A stretch of 64,000 nt of DNA from Ignavibacteriota bacterium (lineage in GTDB: Bacteria > Bacteroidota > Ignavibacteria > Ignavibacteriales > Melioribacteraceae). Shown here in pieces: positions 3,272 through 13,269 of this stretch (position 1 is the first letter of the stretch; each line of letters begins with the position of its first letter). The stretch covers positions 62,001 through 126,000 of the forward strand of contig PAAX01000014.1 of NCBI GenBank assembly GCA_002698995.1. Reading direction: 5' to 3'. The notes beneath the pieces were generated by a model. The model saw only the letters and a program-made list of their open reading frames with translations, was not told the origin of the DNA and ran no database searches. The position numbers and the translations under genes were made by a program.

Positions 3272-4336
3272 TTATCTTTTACCAATAATTATTACTGCTT
3301 TTGGATTATCGTATCCTACACTTACTATAATATCATCCTTTATCTTTACTCTTAAAAATTCATCTGCGCTTACAGCTCCTTCTTCTCGGTAGCTCTTCCA
3401 GGTTGAACCGTTATAGTGCAGAAGTTCTCCATATGAACCGCATACTGCTATATCATTTTCCGCTTGTCCGTCTATTGAATACAAATAATATCTTGTTATG
3501 CCTTGCTGAAAACTTACCCATGGTTCACTGCTTTTAATATCCTGCTTCTTATACATTTCTCCGCCTACCGCGTAATAAACACTCCCCGGCTTACCCCATA
3601 TTCCACTTATGCTTGCCCGTATGCCCGTAACCGGAAGCTCTGTTACTTTTGTTCCTTCTATCTTCAGAATTTTCTTTTCTAAGTTTACAGACTGTTTAGC
3701 TGCCACAGCGTATATTTTATACTCTTCCCCTTCTTTAAAGCCTTGTATGTCGTAGATATCTAATTGATCTGTACCAGAAGGGGTGGTTAGTTTTTCCCAA
3801 TTATTTCCATTGTAATGAGCCATACTACCTGATCGACCTCCGAAATAGATATTACTTGTGTTTGTTCCCCAGACGCTTGTTAACGACAAATTAGGATCTA
3901 CTGTTGTTCTTAAATCATATACTTGCCAATTATTCCCATCTCCATATATTGGTAAGCTGCCTACTACCCAAATATCAGTTTGAGAAAAAGCAAGAATCCC
4001 TTCTAATGGAGCTGTTATTAGTGCACCTCTGAAATAAGTTTGTATTTTTTTAACCTCGAAACGGGTACCATCCCAATGAACAGCATTATAGGCTTCTGGG
4101 TCAGCTTCTCCGGTTGAATCATTCAAATATATTTCTCCAACAACCCAAATATTATTTTCATCTATTATGGCTATATCAAACAAGGTACTGCTGCTGTGCG
4201 CACCAAACTCCCATCTCTCAAAATTAAAGTTATGTGAGGTAGTATCTTGTTGAATTATATCAGTAGTTTCGGTTGGAGACTTACATGATAAAACAATTAA
4301 GAGTATTACGGTATAAATCCAAATTAGAGTTTTCAT
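3272..4336 (-). CDS. Predicted propeller-type lipoprotein
   Basis: About 354 residues from the ATG at 4336. An in-frame ATG at 4351 would add five residues, but the shorter start gives a standard lipoprotein signal (MKTLIWIYTVILLIVLSCKS, lipobox Cys). The mature protein contains repeated blocks of the form D-IWVVG...HWDG..., NIYFGG...HYNGNNWEKL and DIAVCGSYGELLHYNGSTW. These look like blades of a beta-propeller, although no catalytic motif is visible. It is a distant paralogue of the lipoprotein at 4726-5769 and of the stub at 4434-4571. Probable location is the outer or inner membrane, facing the periplasm or surface. Function is unknown; a role in binding or adhesion is conceivable but unsupported. 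Confidence 0.8.
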   Translation of the reverse strand: MKTLIWIYTVILLIVLSCKSPTETTDIIQQDTTSHNFNFERWEFGAHSSSTLFDIAIIDENNIWVVGEIYLNDSTGEADPEAYNAVHWDGTRFEVKKIQTYFRGALITAPLEGILAFSQTDIWVVGSLPIYGDGNNWQVYDLRTTVDPNLSLTSVWGTNTSNIYFGGRSGSMAHYNGNNWEKLTTPSGTDQLDIYDIQGFKEGEEYKIYAVAAKQSVNLEKKILKIEGTKVTELPVTGIRASISGIWGKPGSVYYAVGGEMYKKQDIKSSEPWVSFQQGITRYYLYSIDGQAENDIAVCGSYGELLHYNGSTWKSYREEGAVSADEFLRVKIKDDIIVSVGYDNPKAVIIIGKR

Positions 4337-4433
4337 ATTTATTAGTCTCATATTCTTTACAGATTAAATCAAAAAATTATTAGATATTTATTTTTCACAA
4401 TACTTCCAAGTTTATTTGCTTGGTCGTTTGCTT

Positions 4434-4725: not shown

Positions 4726-5769
4726 TTAATTTACATTTATCCTACCAGTATAAATCATATTTAATCCTGTAGAAGGTTCCCTTACCAAAAAGATAGATAT
4801 ATTTTCAAAAAGTGCTGCTCCATATATTTGTGTATATGGTCTATCATCAGGTCTATTAAAATAAAACAAATATTCCATATCACTTCCGTTGTAATGTGCT
4901 AAGCCGTCTGTCATTAGTAAGAAAATATCCTTTGAATTTCTTCCCCATATTCTTTGATAAAAATTTGGATTATCCACATTTAATAATGTGTAGAATTTAT
5001 CATTTCTTCTTACCGCTATTCTACTTCCCATTATAAAATAAACTTCTCCATCAATATAGCTCAAATCAGATTGTTTCCCTTTTATCCAAAGGTCGCTGTA
5101 TAATAAGTTGTATCCGCCATTTTTGTACTCATATATTGAAGTGCTATCTGTTAAATTCCTACCACCGATAACTTGTAAATATATGTGGTTATCAAATTTA
5201 TTTTTATATAACCTACTTACAATTCCATAAAGCATATCAGTATTATACATTTCCCATTTACCGCTAGAGTAGTGGACTATTACACTATTGTTATAATATC
5301 CATTTTCTTCAGGATAAGCTCCATATGCATAAATGCTATTAGGTGAATCTCCCCATATATTATTAATAACAGCATGATTATTATTGTCCTTCGGAAGTTC
5401 AGTTATATGGTTCCAGTTTGCACCATCATAATTCCATACATGACCCATTGTGCCAATATATATGTTGCTTGAAGAAAACCCGTAAATTGAATAAGGATCT
5501 ACGATTCCTGGTTCACCGTACAATGACCACTTTTCTCCATCATAATGCGCTATAGACTTATCCCAATTACTTGAACTTATCATCCATAAATTACTGGGTG
5601 AGCTTCCCCACATTCTGTAATAGGCAGTACCAGGAGCATCTAAAGTATCAACACTCCAAACATAATCTCTTCTACCGGGTTTTGTGTCTTCAATTATTTC
5701 TGTTGGTGAATCACATGAGATTGTTAAAATTATTAAAAGCAGTATTATTGAGCGAATTAGTTTTTTCAT
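4726..5769 (-). CDS. Predicted propeller-type lipoprotein
   Basis: 347 residues starting MKKLIRSIILLLIILTISCD, a clear lipoprotein signal with the lipobox Cys at residue 19. The body repeats short blocks such as PSNLWMISSSNWDKSIAHYDG, SSNIYIGTMGHVWNYDGANW, PNSIYAYGA and SKDIFLLMTDGLAHYNGSDM, a pattern expected for beta-propeller blades with an IW/IY-G...HY-G-W core. No enzyme motif is recognised. The gene is a paralogue of 3272-4336 and shares its leader and upstream DNA with the stub at 4434-4571. Composite repeat copy C begins only 34 bp upstream of the start codon, so it probably lies in the promoter or 5' untranslated region. Confidence 0.8.
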   Translation of the reverse strand: MKKLIRSIILLLIILTISCDSPTEIIEDTKPGRRDYVWSVDTLDAPGTAYYRMWGSSPSNLWMISSSNWDKSIAHYDGEKWSLYGEPGIVDPYSIYGFSSSNIYIGTMGHVWNYDGANWNHITELPKDNNNHAVINNIWGDSPNSIYAYGAYPEENGYYNNSVIVHYSSGKWEMYNTDMLYGIVSRLYKNKFDNHIYLQVIGGRNLTDSTSIYEYKNGGYNLLYSDLWIKGKQSDLSYIDGEVYFIMGSRIAVRRNDKFYTLLNVDNPNFYQRIWGRNSKDIFLLMTDGLAHYNGSDMEYLFYFNRPDDRPYTQIYGAALFENISIFLVREPSTGLNMIYTGRINVN

Positions 5770-6154: not shown

Positions 6155-7309
6155 TTATTTCTTAAAGAACTCACCGGTAATTATGTGCCATTCTTTATCT
6201 TCTAATGTACTTAACTGTTCCCAGTAAACTGTATCATCTTTCTTTTCTGTATTATCAATCTTAAGTACTTCTTTCATTTCAGCCAAATATTTATCAATTT
6301 CCTCCTGGTAAAAACTAACGGCAGCTTTACCTATTTTTAATGCCGGCAGTTCGGTATCAAGATTTCCCGCATCAATAGTGCAAATCCAGTTCTTTTCATA
6401 AGTAGTATAATCTAAAGATTCCAAATTATCATTCAAATCTTGATTTACTTTTGTTACTTGTCCGCTTAACGGAGAATTAAATTGTACTGTTCTCTTACCC
6501 TGTTTAATTCCGAATAAAGGTTCTCCTTTTGTCGCATGCATTCCAAGGTTCGGAAATTCAATAAAATCGATAGTACCTAATAACTTCTTAGCAAAATCAT
6601 CTATACCTATTCTAACAAATCCATCTTGAGTAACATTAGCCCAGCAATGTCCTTCAGAAATAAAAACTCCTCCCGGAATTGCAAATTCACCTTTACCAAC
6701 TGTTTCGCTTTCAGGTAAATGAGAAATATGTACTCTTGGTTTTAATTCTTTATGAATTCTATCTTGTCTTTTAATTAAAGATTTTTTGGTGAACTCTAAA
6801 AGTTCATCTTCGGTAAATGGTTTCTGAACATAATCCATTGCACCGTATTTCATACAATCAACAGCGGTTTCTACAGTTGCATAACCGGTAATAATAATTA
6901 CGTCAATATCGGGACGAAGATTTTTTACAACTTTAGTAACTTCAACACCGCTCATTTCTGGCATTTTCAAATCAGTAAAAACAAAATCATAATGATGAGA
7001 TTTAATTAAGTTGATTGCTTCCGGTCCGGAGTTAACTGTTTCAACTGTATATCCGTCTAACACTAAAATTTTTCTGAAACTATCTAAAATTACATCTTCA
7101 TCATCAACGCATAATATTTTTGCTTTTGGGTTTGGCACTTCAGCACGCTTAAGTGATTTAGCTTCTTTGCTGAAATCAACTTGAATACTATCCTGAAGTA
7201 TTGCTTCTCTTTCTTTACGAAGTTTTTGCTCTTTTGCTTTCTTGAAAGCAAATCTTATGATTATATCAGCTATTATCAAAATGATTACTGCTACAATAAA
7301 GAGTGGCAT
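6155..7309 (-). CDS. Membrane-anchored response regulator with GcvH-like C-terminal domain
   Basis: 384 residues. Residues 3-21 form one hydrophobic anchor. A receiver domain spans about 63-178, with acidic pair D69-D70, phospho-acceptor D113 (FTDLKMP) and K163 (QKPF). Residues ~215-320 resemble the glycine-cleavage H protein/lipoyl fold (VRIGIDDFAKKLLGTIDFI, then FNSPLSGQVTKVN). Lys272 sits seven residues before the SPLSG serine, the position of the lipoylated lysine in GcvH. No DNA-binding domain is present, so output may run through protein contacts or a lipoyl-like group. RBS AGGAG precedes the ATG. It is the last gene of the operon that starts at 13269. The tail (330-384) is unrecognised. 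Confidence 0.85.
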   Translation of the reverse strand: MPLFIVAVIILIIADIIIRFAFKKAKEQKLRKEREAILQDSIQVDFSKEAKSLKRAEVPNPKAKILCVDDEDVILDSFRKILVLDGYTVETVNSGPEAINLIKSHHYDFVFTDLKMPEMSGVEVTKVVKNLRPDIDVIIITGYATVETAVDCMKYGAMDYVQKPFTEDELLEFTKKSLIKRQDRIHKELKPRVHISHLPESETVGKGEFAIPGGVFISEGHCWANVTQDGFVRIGIDDFAKKLLGTIDFIEFPNLGMHATKGEPLFGIKQGKRTVQFNSPLSGQVTKVNQDLNDNLESLDYTTYEKNWICTIDAGNLDTELPALKIGKAAVSFYQEEIDKYLAEMKEVLKIDNTEKKDDTVYWEQLSTLEDKEWHIITGEFFKK

Positions 7310-7348
7310 AGCTATTCTCCTGTTTGAAATAAATTTATATTGCTTTAC

Positions 7349-8140
7349 TTACAGCCTATCAGAACTGCATGAGATCAACAATTTCTTTTCATATTCCAAA
7401 TCTGATGGAAGAATTCTATAAATCCATCCTTCAAAATAGGGATCTTTCTCAAGCAGTTTTGGATTACTTATCAGTCTTTCATTTACTTCTAAAATTCTTC
7501 CGCTTATAGCAGAATAAATATTGTGCGAAAGTCCATCTTCAGAAACAAACTTTGCACATTCTGCTCCTTGTGTTAAAGTATCATCAACATTAAGAAGCTC
7601 TATTTCTTTAATTGATTCAATCAGTTTCATGTATATATCAGTTGTACCGATTTTTGCAGTGCTGTCAAATTCTTCAGCAAGCCAGCTTGAAAAGCCTAAA
7701 CGAAAATATTTACTGGGACAAGAGACTAAAAAGAAATCTCCTTCACTTTCATTAGCTTTCTGGATTACTTGGTTGTATCTCAATCCCCGTCTTAATGTAC
7801 TTTCAAGTTCATCAATACTAAAAGGTTTAGGAATAAAAGCAATTGCCCCTTCGTACAAGGCTTTAACAGCATTTTCAACTGCTGAATATCCTGTAGTTAT
7901 TATAACAGGAGTTTGAATTTTTCTTGCAGCAAGTTCTTGAAGAAATTGAAATCCATCCATTCCGGGCATCATTACATCGGAAAGTATCACATTATAATCG
8001 TTATCATTTAATTTTGCCAAAGCTGTCTGTGCATCAAGAGCAGTATCAATAGTAAGATTATCAAGCTTCGCAATTTTAATAATGGAATCAATTATAACTT
8101 GTTCGTCATCAACTGCTAATATGTCAAATTTGTTTTTCAT
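7349..8140 (-). CDS. Response regulator with degenerate GcvH-like domain
   Basis: 263 residues. The receiver domain covers residues ~5-122, with DDE at 11-13, phospho-acceptor D55 (LSDVMMPGMDG) and the conserved KPF. Residues ~135-255 follow the H-protein pattern: LGFSSWLAEEF, then SAISGRILEVNERL and PKLLEKDPYFEGWIYRI, the last closely like the GcvH C-terminal motif. The position of the lipoyl lysine is Gly here, unlike in the partner encoded at 6155-7309. There is no membrane segment and no DNA-binding domain. The gene lies 3 bp after the kinase gene, so the two are translationally linked. It is likely phosphorylated by that kinase; the target is unknown. Confidence 0.85.
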   Translation of the reverse strand: MKNKFDILAVDDEQVIIDSIIKIAKLDNLTIDTALDAQTALAKLNDNDYNVILSDVMMPGMDGFQFLQELAARKIQTPVIITTGYSAVENAVKALYEGAIAFIPKPFSIDELESTLRRGLRYNQVIQKANESEGDFFLVSCPSKYFRLGFSSWLAEEFDSTAKIGTTDIYMKLIESIKEIELLNVDDTLTQGAECAKFVSEDGLSHNIYSAISGRILEVNERLISNPKLLEKDPYFEGWIYRILPSDLEYEKKLLISCSSDRL

Positions 8141-8143
8141 ATA

Positions 8144-10003
8144 TCAATATTCCGGCAGTCTTAATGTAAAAGTTGTTCCAACATTAACTTCGCTGGTTAC
8201 ACCAATAGTACCGTTGTGGTTATCCATAATTCCCCAAATTACCGAAAGACCAAGTCCGTTCCCTTTTTGTCCTTTTGTAGAAAAGAAAGGATCAAAAATT
8301 TTATTAAGATTTTCTCTCGCTATTCCGCATCCGTTATCGGTAATTTTTATTTCAATGAATTTTTTATTTCCTTCTCTATCAACAAAATCCCATTCCTGCC
8401 AATTATCTTTAAAAGAAGCACAACCTTCTAAAAAGCCTTTTTGAGGAATTGGAATTCTGTAAACTGGTCCGCCGCAGTCGGGACATCTTTTACCACTGTT
8501 TATCAATGAAATTCCGCATTGCGGACAGCTTAATTCAACAGTAGATTTATTGCTTACGGTTATTCCAAAATAATTTTTATTTCTTCCGTAAATCGGATCG
8601 AGATTTATAAATCCTTCCGTTCCGTTTGCGTTCACTTTTAATTTAATTGTTGAATTACCTTCAAGCTTATATTCGGGATCGAGCAGACTGTGATTTTTAG
8701 GGCAGACAGCATGCTTAATGTGTGTTATTCCCTTTGGAGAAAGACTAATTTCCGAAGTTGATATTGTTATAATTCCTTCTTTTTTATCAATCGCATCAAT
8801 CGCATTTAAAAGAAGATTTAACATTACCTGCTGAATTTGATTAGCGTCGGCAACAATATTTGGTAAATCTTTTTCGAGTTCTGTATTTAAAGTTATCTGT
8901 TTTATTTTAAGCTGATTCGTAACAACTTTAAATGCTCTTTCAATTACTTCATTAACATTAATTTTATTCTTTTTAGGTGCTGATTGTCTTGCGAAATCCA
9001 AAAGTCCTTTTACAATCTCTCTGCTTCTCATTGTTTCTCTAACAATAACCTGAAGATCTTCCTGCATTTCTGGATTGTCTTTAGTTCTTTTAAGTAAATA
9101 ACTGCTGTAAGTTAAAACACCGGTTAAAGGATTATTAATTTCGTGCGCAACTCCCGCAGCTAATTGACCAAGAGAAGCCATCTTATCAGATTGGAAAATC
9201 TGCTGACGCATTTCTTCCAGTTTCTTTGTCATTTTATTGAATGAATCACCTAAAATTCCGAGTTCATCATTTCCAAGTTTATCAATCGAGTAATTGAAAT
9301 TTCCTAATGCAACTTGATTAGTAGCATTTACCAATTCTTTAACAGGTCTGTTAATCCAATGAGCAACAAAAAATCCGATTAACAAACCGATTGCAGTAAT
9401 AGAAACAACTGCAAAGATTATCTCTCTAACTGTATTGGCTCTAAGCTGTTCATCAACATCATCTAAAAGAATTGTTACATCAAGCACACCAAGTATTGTT
9501 GATTCTGAACTGTGAGCATGACAAGGAGCTTCATAACATGACGGTTCATTCTGGATTGGATTTATAACCCCCATAATTCTTGGCGAATCATCGGTTGGTT
9601 TATAAATTCTTGTTCTATCTTTTATTTCCAACTTACTTATCGGTTGATCTTCTGCATGACAGACATAACAGCTTTCAGCATTCTTATCCAGCATATGTCC
9701 AATATCATTTTGATGAGAAGAATAAGTAATCATTCCTTCTTTGTTTAGAATTCTTACTGCATTAATCTCTTTATCCTTGCCGATTGTCGTAATGATTTCC
9801 TGAATTCTGTCTCTTTGATTGAAAAGCATATCAAAGCGAGTACTGTTTTTAACAGTCTCGCTTAATTGATGTGCATGTCTTTCAACTTCAGAAAGTAAAA
9901 CTTCACTTTGGGATTTTACATTAAAGTATGAGTAAATCCCAATAATCAATATGGAAGTTATACTTACAACAAAAATCAGTTTTACACTTATCTTCTTTAA
10001 CAT
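8144..10003 (-). CDS. Sensor histidine kinase with periplasmic c-type haem motifs and a zinc-ribbon insertion
   Basis: 619 residues. Membrane segments at ~8-27 and ~194-215 enclose a periplasmic sensor domain with one CxxCH motif (C112-H116) and one CX4CH motif (C156-H162), both plausible covalent haem sites. A HAMP domain follows (216-270), then HisKA with H287 (GVAHEINNPLTG) and an ATPase domain with N-box N400, D556-G560 (DNGCG) and the GNGLGLS loop. Between the N-box strand and the G1 box lie ~125 extra residues (about 422-548) with CPQC (493-496), CPDC (507-510) and an isolated CPK at 434, resembling a zinc ribbon. The gene sits 1 bp after the multihaem cytochrome gene, which suggests it senses the redox state of that pathway. 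Confidence 0.9.
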   Translation of the reverse strand: MLKKISVKLIFVVSITSILIIGIYSYFNVKSQSEVLLSEVERHAHQLSETVKNSTRFDMLFNQRDRIQEIITTIGKDKEINAVRILNKEGMITYSSHQNDIGHMLDKNAESCYVCHAEDQPISKLEIKDRTRIYKPTDDSPRIMGVINPIQNEPSCYEAPCHAHSSESTILGVLDVTILLDDVDEQLRANTVREIIFAVVSITAIGLLIGFFVAHWINRPVKELVNATNQVALGNFNYSIDKLGNDELGILGDSFNKMTKKLEEMRQQIFQSDKMASLGQLAAGVAHEINNPLTGVLTYSSYLLKRTKDNPEMQEDLQVIVRETMRSREIVKGLLDFARQSAPKKNKINVNEVIERAFKVVTNQLKIKQITLNTELEKDLPNIVADANQIQQVMLNLLLNAIDAIDKKEGIITISTSEISLSPKGITHIKHAVCPKNHSLLDPEYKLEGNSTIKLKVNANGTEGFINLDPIYGRNKNYFGITVSNKSTVELSCPQCGISLINSGKRCPDCGGPVYRIPIPQKGFLEGCASFKDNWQEWDFVDREGNKKFIEIKITDNGCGIARENLNKIFDPFFSTKGQKGNGLGLSVIWGIMDNHNGTIGVTSEVNVGTTFTLRLPEY

Positions 10004-10004
10004 T

Positions 10005-11126
10005 TTACTTTACTCTTTTTCCCGGAATAAATTCAGGATAAGTTATATCATCATGACAGCTTTCACAAGTCGGTTTTGAATAATCTTCCGAAGTATGACA
10101 GCTTTCGCAGTCAAGTTCACCATGCATTTCATCAAGAACAATTTTAGTTACTTTATGATCGAAATTAGACCAGCTCCATTCACCATGGCAGCTGCTGCAT
10201 GATTTATTCAATCCGGTAAATTTACCTTGATTAACATGACATCTTTGGCAGTCTAATTTTGAGTGATATTTCAAAATATCAAATCCAGTTGAAACCAAAT
10301 GGTTAAACCCTTTTGGTTCCTTATCATTATGGCATGAAGAGCAGTTATCATCAGTATCATGGCAGTCAGAACATAATTGGTGCTGAATTTCAACTGTTCT
10401 AGGTTTCTTCATTTGTTCCGGACGCTGATCATGACATTTTACACAACCTTCATTAGAATGGCATGTCTGGCAATCTAATCCAAATAAATCTATATGCTCT
10501 TTATGAAGAAATGTAACTTTGCCTTCTGCATCCGGAGTTTCAAATTTAATTCTATCCGGAGTTTCAATTTTCGGATGCGTTTTCGCTTTTGCTTTTGCAA
10601 CTAAATCTTCTTTGCTTAAAGAAGTATTATTAAGCTGATGACATCCGTCGCAGTTAGTATTTCCGCTCCATTCGCGGTGGCAATCCATACATTGTCTGTG
10701 ATATGCACCTTTCAAATCCGGGCGGTTTACATCTTCGCGTTTTCTTTCTTCATTATGACAGCTGTTACAAGCAACAATTTTTCCAGGAGGATTATAGTGA
10801 TGACATGAAACACATCCGCCGGACATTTCAGCCATTTCTGAATGTAATCTATGCGTAAATACTACTTCCTTGTATAGATCTTCATTTCCTCTAAGTTTAT
10901 TTATTTTTATTACTTCTGGTCCCTCTTCCGGAGATTGTCTTACTGTAACCAGCTCTTCTCTTGGGCACTCAATTAAGCAAGGATTTTCCTTAGTTGGAAT
11001 TTCGCAAGAGTGACAGTTACTGCATTTTAAAGCTTTCTCGCTGTGAGAAGTAAATTTTTTGTCTTGTGCATTTGAGTTAATCGAAAAGATTAAAACAAGC
11101 ACTAAAAGTAAACTTAATCTTTTCAT
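10005..11126 (-). CDS. Periplasmic multihaem cytochrome c with 13 CxxCH motifs
   Basis: 373 residues with a Sec signal peptide (MKRLSLLLVLVLIFSINSNA, then Q). Thirteen CxxCH motifs are visible from CSNCH near residue 35 to CESCH near residue 357, together with many spare histidines that could be axial ligands, as in class III-type multihaem cytochromes. An extra cysteine group (CEIPTKENPCLIEC) follows the first motif. The ATG overlaps the stop of the NrfD-like gene by 4 bp. It probably receives electrons from the membrane and FeS subunits encoded upstream. The trio resembles the periplasmic cytochrome/FeS/NrfD quinol complexes known as Hmc, Qrc or Cbc in other bacteria, but the exact family cannot be named from sequence reading alone. 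Confidence 0.9.
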   Translation of the reverse strand: MKRLSLLLVLVLIFSINSNAQDKKFTSHSEKALKCSNCHSCEIPTKENPCLIECPREELVTVRQSPEEGPEVIKINKLRGNEDLYKEVVFTHRLHSEMAEMSGGCVSCHHYNPPGKIVACNSCHNEERKREDVNRPDLKGAYHRQCMDCHREWSGNTNCDGCHQLNNTSLSKEDLVAKAKAKTHPKIETPDRIKFETPDAEGKVTFLHKEHIDLFGLDCQTCHSNEGCVKCHDQRPEQMKKPRTVEIQHQLCSDCHDTDDNCSSCHNDKEPKGFNHLVSTGFDILKYHSKLDCQRCHVNQGKFTGLNKSCSSCHGEWSWSNFDHKVTKIVLDEMHGELDCESCHTSEDYSKPTCESCHDDITYPEFIPGKRVK

Positions 11127-12364
11127 TTGAATAACCCTCTTATTGCATATTTGGTTTTAGGTGCAACTTTTTGCGGTACACTAATAATTGGGAATATCAT
11201 TACAAAAGCTCTAAATAGAAGAATTTCCAGAGCAATAAAGCCAAGTGTAACAGAGATTTCTCCTATTGACGGGAAATATGAAGCTTCTGCATAAGGAGGA
11301 GTATAAGCAACAATAAAGTTGTTGATCCTATTTAATAACACACCAAAAATTACAAGTCCTGATGCGATAAATAATCCCGCCGGAGTACTTGAAATCTTTC
11401 TTGAGAAAAACATTCTTAGCGGAATTACAACTCCAAGAAGAAGTTCAATTGTGAACATTATACTTTCAGTGTTAACTTCCATTAAGTAGACGTATGTTTG
11501 TCTTACAACAATATCAATAAGTTTTGCAGCTAAATAAATTAATAGAAGCGGTCCGACCATTCTTCCCAAACCTGAAAGAACATCTGTCTCAGGTTTTAAT
11601 CCAAATGATTTTGAACTAATAATTGATTCAAAAATTACCATTGGGAAACCAACACAGATTGCAGAAATCAAAAAGAGAAGAGGAAGAATTGGTGTCTGCC
11701 ACAAAGGATGCATCTTAGGTCCGGCAATAACCATTAATGTTCCCAAAGAAGATTGGTGAAGACATGAAAGTACAACTCCCGAAATAATAAAGATGAACAT
11801 TGTCTTTTCTAATCCTTTATCAAGGAAACGCAAGAGTTTATCGACCGTATTATTGAATTTTTTTAAGAATCCCGGAAGATTAACTCTTCCAATAAATCTT
11901 TCGGTTACAATCGGTAAAAATTCAATGTAAAGAACGGTTAAGTATATCATAACGCAAATACCGACTTCAAACAAAACAGAAGTGCCATTCCACATTATGA
12001 GAGGATGCCAGATAAAGTGGTATCTTCCTAAATCAATCATAACACTCATAGCAACAAAAGTGTAGCCGAGCATTGCAGTCAATAGAGCCGGGCGAATTAT
12101 AACTTCATATTTATCGCGGTGCATAATGTGACCCAACGCAGCTGTTGTAAATCCACCTGCTGCTAAAGCAACGCCGGCGGCAACATCAATACCAATCCAA
12201 ATTCCCCAAGGGAATTGATCGTTTAAGTTGGTAATAGCGCCAATACCGAATAAGAATCTACCCAACAAAAATATTAATCCGTTAAGAGCAATTACCGAGA
12301 CAATCATTATGATTGGAGTAAAAAATTTCTTTTGTATTGGAGTAGGTTTAAAGAAATGTTCCAT
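11123..12364 (-). CDS. NrfD/HybB-type integral membrane quinol subunit
   Basis: 413 residues, about ten hydrophobic segments, with little outside the membrane. Typical HybB/NrfD features are seen: WGIWIGIDVAAGVALAAGG near residues 53-70, then the HPLIMWNG and FEVGICVMIYL helices. Proteins of this family hold the quinone site and pass electrons to or from an FeS partner on the outer face without haem of their own. The start codon overlaps the stop of the FeS-protein gene (TAATG), and the end overlaps the cytochrome start by 4 bp, so the three subunits are likely made in stoichiometric amounts. Direction of electron flow, quinol oxidation or quinone reduction, cannot be told. Confidence 0.9.
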   Translation of the reverse strand: MEHFFKPTPIQKKFFTPIIMIVSVIALNGLIFLLGRFLFGIGAITNLNDQFPWGIWIGIDVAAGVALAAGGFTTAALGHIMHRDKYEVIIRPALLTAMLGYTFVAMSVMIDLGRYHFIWHPLIMWNGTSVLFEVGICVMIYLTVLYIEFLPIVTERFIGRVNLPGFLKKFNNTVDKLLRFLDKGLEKTMFIFIISGVVLSCLHQSSLGTLMVIAGPKMHPLWQTPILPLLFLISAICVGFPMVIFESIISSKSFGLKPETDVLSGLGRMVGPLLLIYLAAKLIDIVVRQTYVYLMEVNTESIMFTIELLLGVVIPLRMFFSRKISSTPAGLFIASGLVIFGVLLNRINNFIVAYTPPYAEASYFPSIGEISVTLGFIALEILLFRAFVMIFPIISVPQKVAPKTKYAIRGLFK

Positions 12365-13269
12365 TATTCCTCCTCCCCATGACTTTCATGTTTTCTATTT
12401 TTATTCAACCACATTACTCCGCCAAGTAAAGCATAAATTGCAATTGGTGGAATAAAGTAAGCAAATATTCCATGCTGAATTGCTTCGGTAACACCGGGTG
12501 CCGGATTTTGAGAGAGTTTTGGAAAATCAACTTTTGTGAAATCCATACTTGATAAATACATCCAAGATGTACCACCGACTTCATATTCACCAAAAATATG
12601 ATTGACATATCTTTCCGGGTATAATCTGATTTTTTCTTTTGCGGCTCTAATTAATTCATCACGTTTACCATAGGTTAAAACTTCCATCGGACAAATTTCA
12701 ACACATGCCGGAAGTAAACCGGTTTTTGTTCTGTCAAAACAGAAGTCGCATTTTTTAATATCCGGACTCCAAGCTTTTTCAAATTCAAAAGCAGGTACTT
12801 GGAACGGACAAGCGACCATGCAGTATCTGCATCCGATACACTTATCTGTATCCCAAATAACCGAACCATTTGCTTGTTTTGAAAATGCTCCAACTATACA
12901 AGCAGAAACACATGCGGGATGATCGCAGTGCATGCATTGAACTTTAACATTTAGTGGAAATTTACCATTTGGATTTTGATACTCGTTTACAACTGTTAAT
13001 GCTTTGGCATCAGGTCTTCTTCTTTTTTCAAAAACAGTGCGGTCATCATAACTTTCAATATTTCCTGCAGGCATATCATGTGCTTTTTTACATGCCCATT
13101 CACATTTTCTACAACCAATACAAGCTGTCGTATCAACTAAAACACCCATTCTTTCATCAGATAAAATATTTTGCGGCGCTGCTTTGGTAGGTTTTGCGGA
13201 AGAAAGACCAACAACCGAAGCTCCCAATACTGCTGAGGTTTTTAAGAAATTTCGGCGGGATTGCTTCAT
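12364..13269 (-). CDS. Tat-exported 4x[4Fe-4S] protein (HybA-like) with C-terminal membrane anchor
   Basis: 301 residues. The N-terminus has a twin-arginine signal (SRRNFLKTSAVLGASVVG). Four cysteine groups follow: CIGCRKCEWAC, CMHCDHPACVSAC, CIGCRYCMVAC and CDFCFD...CVEIC, the DmsB/HybA pattern for four [4Fe-4S] clusters. A single hydrophobic helix near the end (AYFIPPIAIYALLGGVMWL) matches the anchored HybA subtype. It should form the electron wire between the NrfD-like subunit and the multihaem cytochrome on the periplasmic face. It is the first gene of the six-gene operon; the ~260 bp before it (13270-13530) are AT-rich with no obvious operator. Confidence 0.9.
   Translation of the reverse strand: MKQSRRNFLKTSAVLGASVVGLSSAKPTKAAPQNILSDERMGVLVDTTACIGCRKCEWACKKAHDMPAGNIESYDDRTVFEKRRRPDAKALTVVNEYQNPNGKFPLNVKVQCMHCDHPACVSACIVGAFSKQANGSVIWDTDKCIGCRYCMVACPFQVPAFEFEKAWSPDIKKCDFCFDRTKTGLLPACVEICPMEVLTYGKRDELIRAAKEKIRLYPERYVNHIFGEYEVGGTSWMYLSSMDFTKVDFPKLSQNPAPGVTEAIQHGIFAYFIPPIAIYALLGGVMWLNKNRKHESHGEEE

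Follow-up and report, generated by a model that had tools for sequence, protein, structure and literature searches.

What might a response regulator do with an output domain shaped like the H-protein of the glycine cleavage system (GcvH)? This question is raised by two neighbouring genes, here called RRH1 and RRH2, in a stretch of 64,000 nucleotides from an Ignavibacteriota bacterium (contig PAAX01000014.1 of assembly GCA_002698995.1, positions 62,001 to 126,000), referred to as a whole as the window. Both genes lie on the minus strand, at coordinates that a previous sequence-only reading had given correctly, and the plus strand yields no translation. They close a conserved six-gene operon that also encodes a histidine kinase with two c-haem motifs and an NrfD/multihaem cytochrome system. 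We propose, with a probability of about 0.55, that the kinase acts as a haem sensor and phosphorylates these GcvH-fold proteins, which in turn would bind to the NrfD complex and gate its activity. The two proteins are organized as follows.

6155..7309, minus strand: RRH1, apparently membrane-anchored response regulator of 384 amino acids (transmembrane helix, receiver, GcvH-like domain, C-terminal tail)
7238..7306, minus strand: N-terminal hydrophobic helix of RRH1, about residues 2-24 by our reading
6794..7117, minus strand: receiver of RRH1, residues 65-172 (Pfam Response_reg)
6311..6655, minus strand: GcvH-like domain of RRH1, residues 219-333 (Pfam GCV_H)
6494..6496, minus strand: codon of RRH1 Lys272, at the lipoyl position, not conserved
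6158..6310, minus strand: C-terminal tail of RRH1, common to receiver-free membrane GcvH-like proteins
7349..8140, minus strand: RRH2, soluble response regulator of 263 amino acids (receiver, GcvH-like domain)
7793..8122, minus strand: receiver of RRH2, residues 7-116 (Pfam)
7376..7687, minus strand: GcvH-like domain of RRH2, residues 152-255, without lysine at the lipoyl position (Pfam GCV_H)

Pfam, NCBIfam and structure comparison agree with the sequence-only reading that each protein joins a receiver to a GcvH-like domain. In RRH1, Pfam recognized Response_reg (E 1.5e-30) and GCV_H (E 3.3e-19, 69.4 bits); in RRH2, the receiver (E 6.1e-26) and GCV_H (E 3e-18, 66.3 bits), the curated GCV_H cut-off being 22.2 bits. 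AlphaFold models were built from family alignments. The RRH2 model reached a mean predicted local distance difference test score (pLDDT) of 92.4 and a predicted template-modelling score (pTM) of 0.88; for RRH1 the values were 79.8 and 0.50, so that this model does not fix how the domains are arranged. The best Foldseek match of each model in the PDB was a solved H-protein: 3a8j_E for RRH1 (TM-score of the target 0.91, root-mean-square deviation 1.6 Å over 125 columns) and 3ab9 for RRH2 (TM-score of the target 0.86). Residues 139-263 of RRH2 also matched the H-protein 1htp (Z 19.0, 1.9 Å over 122 residues). For RRH1, the VIA-align list was filled with receivers and held no H-protein; Foldseek on the same model gave H-proteins. 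Thus both proteins have the H-protein fold, and a chance match to GCV_H was rejected, given Pfam scores far over the cut-off and the structure matches. Despite this likeness in the whole fold (PF01597, TIGR00527, NF002270), neither protein is a standard GcvH: the NCBIfam cut-offs of 117 and 115.85 bits were not reached by RRH1 (73.5 and 62.3) or RRH2 (65.8 and 54.1), both are fused to receivers and stand apart from the standard GcvH clade, and they do not keep the lipoyl lysine or the glutamate three positions before it.

The receivers themselves are canonical. Residues D69, D70, D113, T141 and K163 of RRH1 are invariant in 94 distinct orthologues, and among 86 RRH2 sequences the aspartates and the lysine are invariant and the threonine is kept in at least 90%. 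Acidic pair, phospho-aspartate, Thr/Ser and lysine are therefore all present, and a histidine kinase gene adjoins, as expected of two-component response regulators. Where a transcriptional regulator would carry a DNA-binding output, the C-terminal half is GCV_H by both Pfam and the models. No DNA-binding family appeared among the Pfam matches of either protein at E up to 1, and the NCBIfam matches (best 25 of 107 families for RRH1, best 25 of 109 for RRH2) all fell over the receiver or the GcvH part. These profile scans and models indicate that RRH1 and RRH2 are devoid of a recognizable DNA-binding part, as the sequence-only reading had also held. RRH1, with its N-terminal hydrophobic helix, appears to be membrane-bound. 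In this helix, D15 is invariant and R19 is kept in at least 90% of the 94 distinct orthologues, both being invariant in a set of 46, as expected of a helix contacting another membrane protein.

The sequence-only reading had gone on to suggest an output through a lipoyl group, possibly a redox switch. It correctly saw Lys272 of RRH1 at the site lipoylated in GcvH, a correspondence supported by sequence alignment and by the model, where the residue sits in the turn that joins strands 264-270 and 273-278; RRH2 has Gly203 there, or Asp202 in another alignment. In such a switch, Lys272 would be lipoylated and its dithiol state, under receiver control, would exchange electrons or signals at the complex. 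The genome does hold a standard GcvH, recognized by its EAVK motif in the one further GCV_H match (another contig, 144.9 bits), and two BPL_LplA_LipB proteins that we read as biotin-ligase-like and lipoyl-transferase-like. However, across 100 RRH1 sequences (the window included; 94 distinct, six contigs being present twice) the Lys272 column holds Asn in 38, Lys in 26, Gly in 10, Thr in 9, His in 6, Gln and Arg in 4 each, and Ser, Ala and Val in 1 each. Lysine is found in 23 of the 94 distinct sequences; on a tree of 86 RRH1 proteins its distribution requires 6 changes, and the near relatives of the window's protein have Asn, Thr, Gln or Arg. The sequence-only reading had named two grounds that would count against it, a Lys272 not kept among orthologues and a structure unlike that of GcvH; the first applies, the second does not. 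The exact place of the lysine and a glutamate at position -3 matter for lipoylation. At -3, 95/100 RRH1 proteins carry Lys or Arg where standard GcvH rows carry Glu, and the column after Lys272 is Arg or Lys in 98/100.

RRH2 follows the same pattern, with lysine in 0/92 sequences (3 rows gapped) and in 1/86 of a second alignment. So do four groups of GcvH-like proteins that have no receiver (lysine in 0/26, 0/15, 1/6 and 0/3); the alignment kept 26/28 rows of group LA and 15/23 of group LB, leaving out rows that were short, identical or without the anchor motif, and two fragments of no group. The 12/12 lysines of the standard GcvH rows arise by construction, as these were picked by a motif containing the lysine (the L063 protein being in twice); their place in the tree does not hang on this column alone. 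Nor did the lipoate ligase or transferase genes that might accompany the cluster come to light: across 120 loci (1.9 Mb) and the window, phmmer at E 0.01 turned up nothing related to the two BPL_LplA_LipB proteins of the genome, a search that a divergent ligase could escape. The lipoyl site has been lost across the family. A variable Lys272, the missing -3 glutamate, the lack of lysine in RRH2 and the failure of that search to find a ligase relative nearby together make a lipoyl switch improbable; column counts, tree labels and neighbourhood search led us to reject it as the leading explanation, and we leave it a marginal chance.

The genomic setting points instead to the electron-transfer complex encoded upstream, in the order Tat Fe-S protein, NrfD/HybB-like protein, multihaem cytochrome, kinase, RRH2 and RRH1 (Tat, twin-arginine translocation; Fe-S, iron-sulphur). 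The four genes preceding the regulators, and the kinase motifs, are as follows.

12364..13269, minus strand: Tat-signal 4Fe-4S protein with a C-terminal hydrophobic tail (HmcB/HybA-like)
11123..12364, minus strand: NrfD/HybB/HmcC-like integral membrane protein
10005..11126, minus strand: multihaem c-type cytochrome (class III/c7 repeats)
8144..10003, minus strand: sensor histidine kinase with an N-terminal Cache-like sensor part, HAMP, HisKA and HATPase
9656..9670, minus strand: CxxCH motif of the kinase, residues 112-116, invariant in 76 distinct kinases
9518..9538, minus strand: Cx4CH motif of the kinase, residues 156-162, invariant in 76 distinct kinases

The loci examined contained 101 RRH1 genes; 28 with less than 6.5 kb upstream were set aside, and 73 were counted. 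The full order was kept in 65/73, or in 59/67 without the duplicate contigs (L034/L138, L035/L071, L036/L081, L037/L082, L039/L089 and L041/L127, all with the full order), and in 71 of the 73 the locus included both Fe-S and NrfD genes. Besides L094 and the two RRH1 genes of L135, described below, the eight exceptions to the order comprise L049 and L128, where it differs, L096, where the kinase matched only as two weaker pieces, and L088 and L120, in which no cytochrome was recognized between NrfD and kinase and an extra RRH1-type gene precedes the Fe-S gene. These last two loci thus have three receiver-GcvH regulators each. Co-occurrence of the pair with an NrfD/multihaem operon in other genomes, which the sequence-only reading had put forward for checking, is therefore the rule, and its suggestion of action at a redox complex rather than in transcription is supported more broadly than it could see; the complex link stands as the better reading, and the lipoyl involvement is not supported.

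A scan of genome contigs yielded, among the best 80 of 197 relatives, mostly Ignavibacteria or Bacteroidetes, with Elusimicrobia, Gemmatimonadetes and one Kiritimatiellaeota among the other taxa. The operon order is kept in Gemmatimonadota and Elusimicrobiota as well. The nearest named lineage is Melioribacter/Stygiobacter, and the whole operon is present in Stygiobacter electus strain 09-Me (L078), whose record is not labelled as a metagenome-assembled genome. One report describes the Melioribacter roseus NrfCD cluster Mros1571-1572 as a quinol:electron acceptor reductase, of a type able to supply multihaem cytochromes in the periplasm, perhaps on the way to Fe(III) (PMC3534657).

Further indications of a partnership with the complex came from relatives that lack the receiver. 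Receiver-free GcvH-like proteins were found by searching with the C-terminal part of RRH1 in the window's phylum and in that of a Gemmatimonadetes genome. In 18 loci from these two phyla, hand-picked from the matches listed, mostly for long open frames (not all of which were taken), 38/40 such proteins lay within 3 kb of an Fe-S or NrfD gene, and the two others came from the edge of a contig of 7.3 kb (L149). Some of the 40 were recognized only once the locus was in hand; L063 and L151, chosen for the same reason, turned out to contain standard GcvH. By comparison, 0/5 standard GcvH genes with flanks had such a gene at that distance. The usual order of these sister operons is membrane-anchored GcvH-like protein, Fe-S protein, NrfD, Cys-rich GcvH-like protein, kinase and then a separate regulator, which a family scan identified as NtrC-type for L147 and which we read as such from its appearance for L051 and L053. 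All 11 inspected kinases of this set carried both haem motifs (the kinases of L059, L060, L061 and L149 fall outside the count).

The sister operons bear on the idea that RRH1 and RRH2 are transcriptional regulators in disguise, whose GcvH-like domain or tail would recruit DNA or a transcription factor. An NtrC-type regulator does stand beside the same kind of kinase there; nevertheless, the lack of a DNA-binding Pfam family and the apparent membrane attachment of RRH1 make this the least probable of the readings considered.

In a tree of 99 GcvH-like domains, which used every fifth RRH1 and RRH2 row, RRH1 formed one clade (support 100/99), sister to five membrane-anchored receiver-free proteins (96/65), and lay with the receiver-free sister proteins inside a joint group (91/95); standard GcvH made a clade of its own (100/99). 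Comparison by hhalign related RRH1 to the membrane-anchored receiver-free proteins with a probability of 96.8 for the C-terminal part (a comparison that takes in the last GcvH strand, its E-value being that of a single comparison) and, more weakly, of 85.6 for the membrane helix; the RRH1 tail against the Cys-rich GcvH-like group gave 47.9. A shared GcvH domain and tail, a weaker likeness in the helix and the nesting in the tree are most simply explained if RRH1 is a membrane-anchored GcvH-like protein into which a receiver was inserted, between helix and GcvH domain.

Several receiver-free proteins carry cysteine-rich N-terminal parts. Soluble-looking GcvH-like proteins beside Fe-S/NrfD genes (L051:11509-12357, L058:3111-3914, L147:12257-13099) share the motif CIWxxAGVxxYKLC...CExC with near variants, possibly a metal or Fe-S site. 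A third GcvH-like type has a long Cys-rich N-terminal part with CPFL-like repeats (L059:14445-15386, L060:14575-15528, L061:9400-10356), and the Fe-S/NrfD genes alongside it are more distant ones.

Since receiver-free versions occur in Fe-S/NrfD operons that have a separate transcription regulator, the most likely role of the GcvH-like part is to partner the complex, and the receivers would place this part under kinase control. We therefore regard RRH1 and RRH2 as the probable output of a two-component system that serves a single membrane electron-transfer complex. The kinase, with its two c-haem motifs, would detect, on the multihaem cytochrome's side, either redox state or a ligand of haem, and phosphorylate the receivers of RRH2 and RRH1. 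The GcvH-fold domains, acting not as lipoyl carriers, would attach to the NrfD/Fe-S complex from the cytoplasm, and phosphorylation would change the activity of the complex without transcription. Domain make-up, loss of the lipoyl site, canonical receivers, operon conservation and the kinship and tail that RRH1 shares with complex-linked GcvH-like proteins are direct observations; docking and gating are what we infer from them. Overall, they suggest that the signal acts on the complex and not on the expression of genes. A wider generalization, to which we give somewhat less than an even chance, is that non-lipoylated GcvH-fold proteins are a general and so far undescribed component of NrfD/Fe-S membrane complexes in several phyla, and that a respiratory complex here has subunits controlled by phosphorylation, the receivers allowing direct gating by a haem-sensing kinase.

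The same linkage evidence, with receiver-free versions adjoining Fe-S/NrfD genes, would also fit a role in assembly, in which the GcvH-fold domains help to insert or mature the Fe-S, NrfD or cytochrome subunits and phosphorylation times the process. The conserved receiver residues, together with a haem-motif kinase of their own, speak rather for reversible control, yet they are compatible with assembly timing. Assembly control is accordingly the main rival to docking and gating, and an unlikely one. Rather less probable again is action elsewhere in the cell: the domains might mimic H-protein on lipoate-dependent or other cytoplasmic enzymes, as the fully kept fold would allow, or one regulator might be a phosphate sink. 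Phosphate-sink systems have two regulators for one kinase, an arrangement also seen here. The hydrophobic helix of RRH1 with its conserved Asp15 and Arg19, and the fact that the closest receiver-free relatives of RRH1 are complex-linked, argue against action away from the complex.

Several observations weigh against docking and gating. Two RRH1 genes in L135 have no Fe-S or NrfD gene within about 10 kb, and the operon of L094 has no RRH2, a 263-amino-acid match lying on another contig of that genome. The distribution is patchy: RRH1 was found in 17/198 sampled genomes of the window's phylum and in 12/15 of its own family, and RRH1-like matches in 3/101, 2/99 and 2/145 genomes of other phylum samples, the latter two run at E 1e-20, where receiver-free relatives can escape. 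RRH2 has no clear tie to a single receiver-free group, and its branch beside standard GcvH is weak (84/88). Contact with the complex would follow from gene linkage and descent, both indirect, and the receiver of a structural GcvH-like protein could have been acquired for some purpose besides gating. The predicted cytoplasmic orientation of the RRH1 domains comes from our reading of positive residues after the helix, and the DNA-binding test comprised Pfam, NCBIfam (within the ranges given above) and fold matches.

On the kinase side, haem attachment to the two motifs and phosphotransfer to the receivers are likewise what the model would require. When the sensor parts of 22 kinases were scanned against families (E up to 5), the Cache matches were weak (dCache_1 in 18, best 5.4e-5; sCache_3_2 in 16, best 1e-6), and the best PDB match of the kinase was the chemotaxis sensor 3b42 (E 0.0057 for the whole sequence, no single stretch being significant), which we take to bind haem. 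Kinases of the sCache_heme type (DUF3365/Tll0287) likewise place a Cache-like domain with CxxCH before HAMP and kinase modules, according to a preprint that describes haem-binding Cache domains fused to signalling modules as nitric oxide sensors (PMC12889525); on that basis, redox state and nitric oxide are both possible signals. Unlike those proteins, the kinase here has two motifs, CxxCH and Cx4CH, and Tll0287 matches were weak (9/22 sensor parts, E 0.19 or worse).

Among known systems, the Hmc complex and the tail-anchored ferredoxin/HybB-like/cytochrome c module resemble the operon in combining a Tat Fe-S protein with a C-terminal tail, an NrfD/HybB-like protein and a multihaem cytochrome. 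The account of Hmc and the three-gene module in PMC10924467 places rrf1 and rrf2 with the hmc genes and assigns to them regulators that control hmc expression; no conserved flanking genes are reported for the three-gene module, the words 'glycine cleavage' do not occur, and GcvH is absent from the account of module and Hmc. Unlike Hmc, the present operon has only six genes, so that HmcE and HmcF are not among them, and a kinase and GcvH-fold regulators follow. Membership in Hmc was rejected on scores under the cut-offs (HmcB 325.2 of 420, HmcC 278.1 of 550, HmcA 60 of 400 bits), as was the hydrogenase-2 module HybA/HybB (HybA 244.7 of 263; HybB-type PRK10881, 348.7 of 450).

To our knowledge, the closest signalling paralogue of GcvH is the lipoylated GcvH-L of the SirTM/macrodomain operons, which its authors link to the redox response; their report states that its modification depends on lipoylation and names an LplA2/GcvH-L pair (PMC4518038). 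RRH1 differs in that its lysine is not conserved, and no ligase relative turned up near the operons in the phmmer search described above. Three of four receiver-free GcvH-like proteins scanned matched GcvH_rel_desulf (NF045810) and not_gcvH (TIGR03077), at scores far under the cut-offs (29.5-33.7 of 150 and 32.6-57.4 of 144.05 bits). By titles and abstracts among the matches listed, mostly without subscription papers, we found no literature on receiver-GcvH fusions or on GcvH beside NrfD.

If correct, the proposal would add to two-component signalling a mode of output that acts directly on an electron-transfer complex, and would give the H-protein fold a further role, as a partner of NrfD complexes that carries no cofactor. 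Annotations naming such proteins glycine cleavage proteins would then need correction. With the whole operon, Stygiobacter electus 09-Me offers a strain of the lineage in which the proposal can be tested.

Three further features of the locus were observed. Directly downstream of the operon lie two genes of similar length that we read as lipoprotein-like (3272-4351 and 4726-5769, minus strand). The GcvH-like parts contain conserved cysteines, C310 in RRH1 and C141 in RRH2 at 90% or more; RRH2 C258 reaches at least 90% in 43 sequences and not in 86. The HATPase domain of the kinase holds an insertion resembling a zinc ribbon (window positions 8420-8704, residues 434-528), in which C434, H438, C493, C496, C507, C510 and C528 are each kept in at least 90% of sequences.

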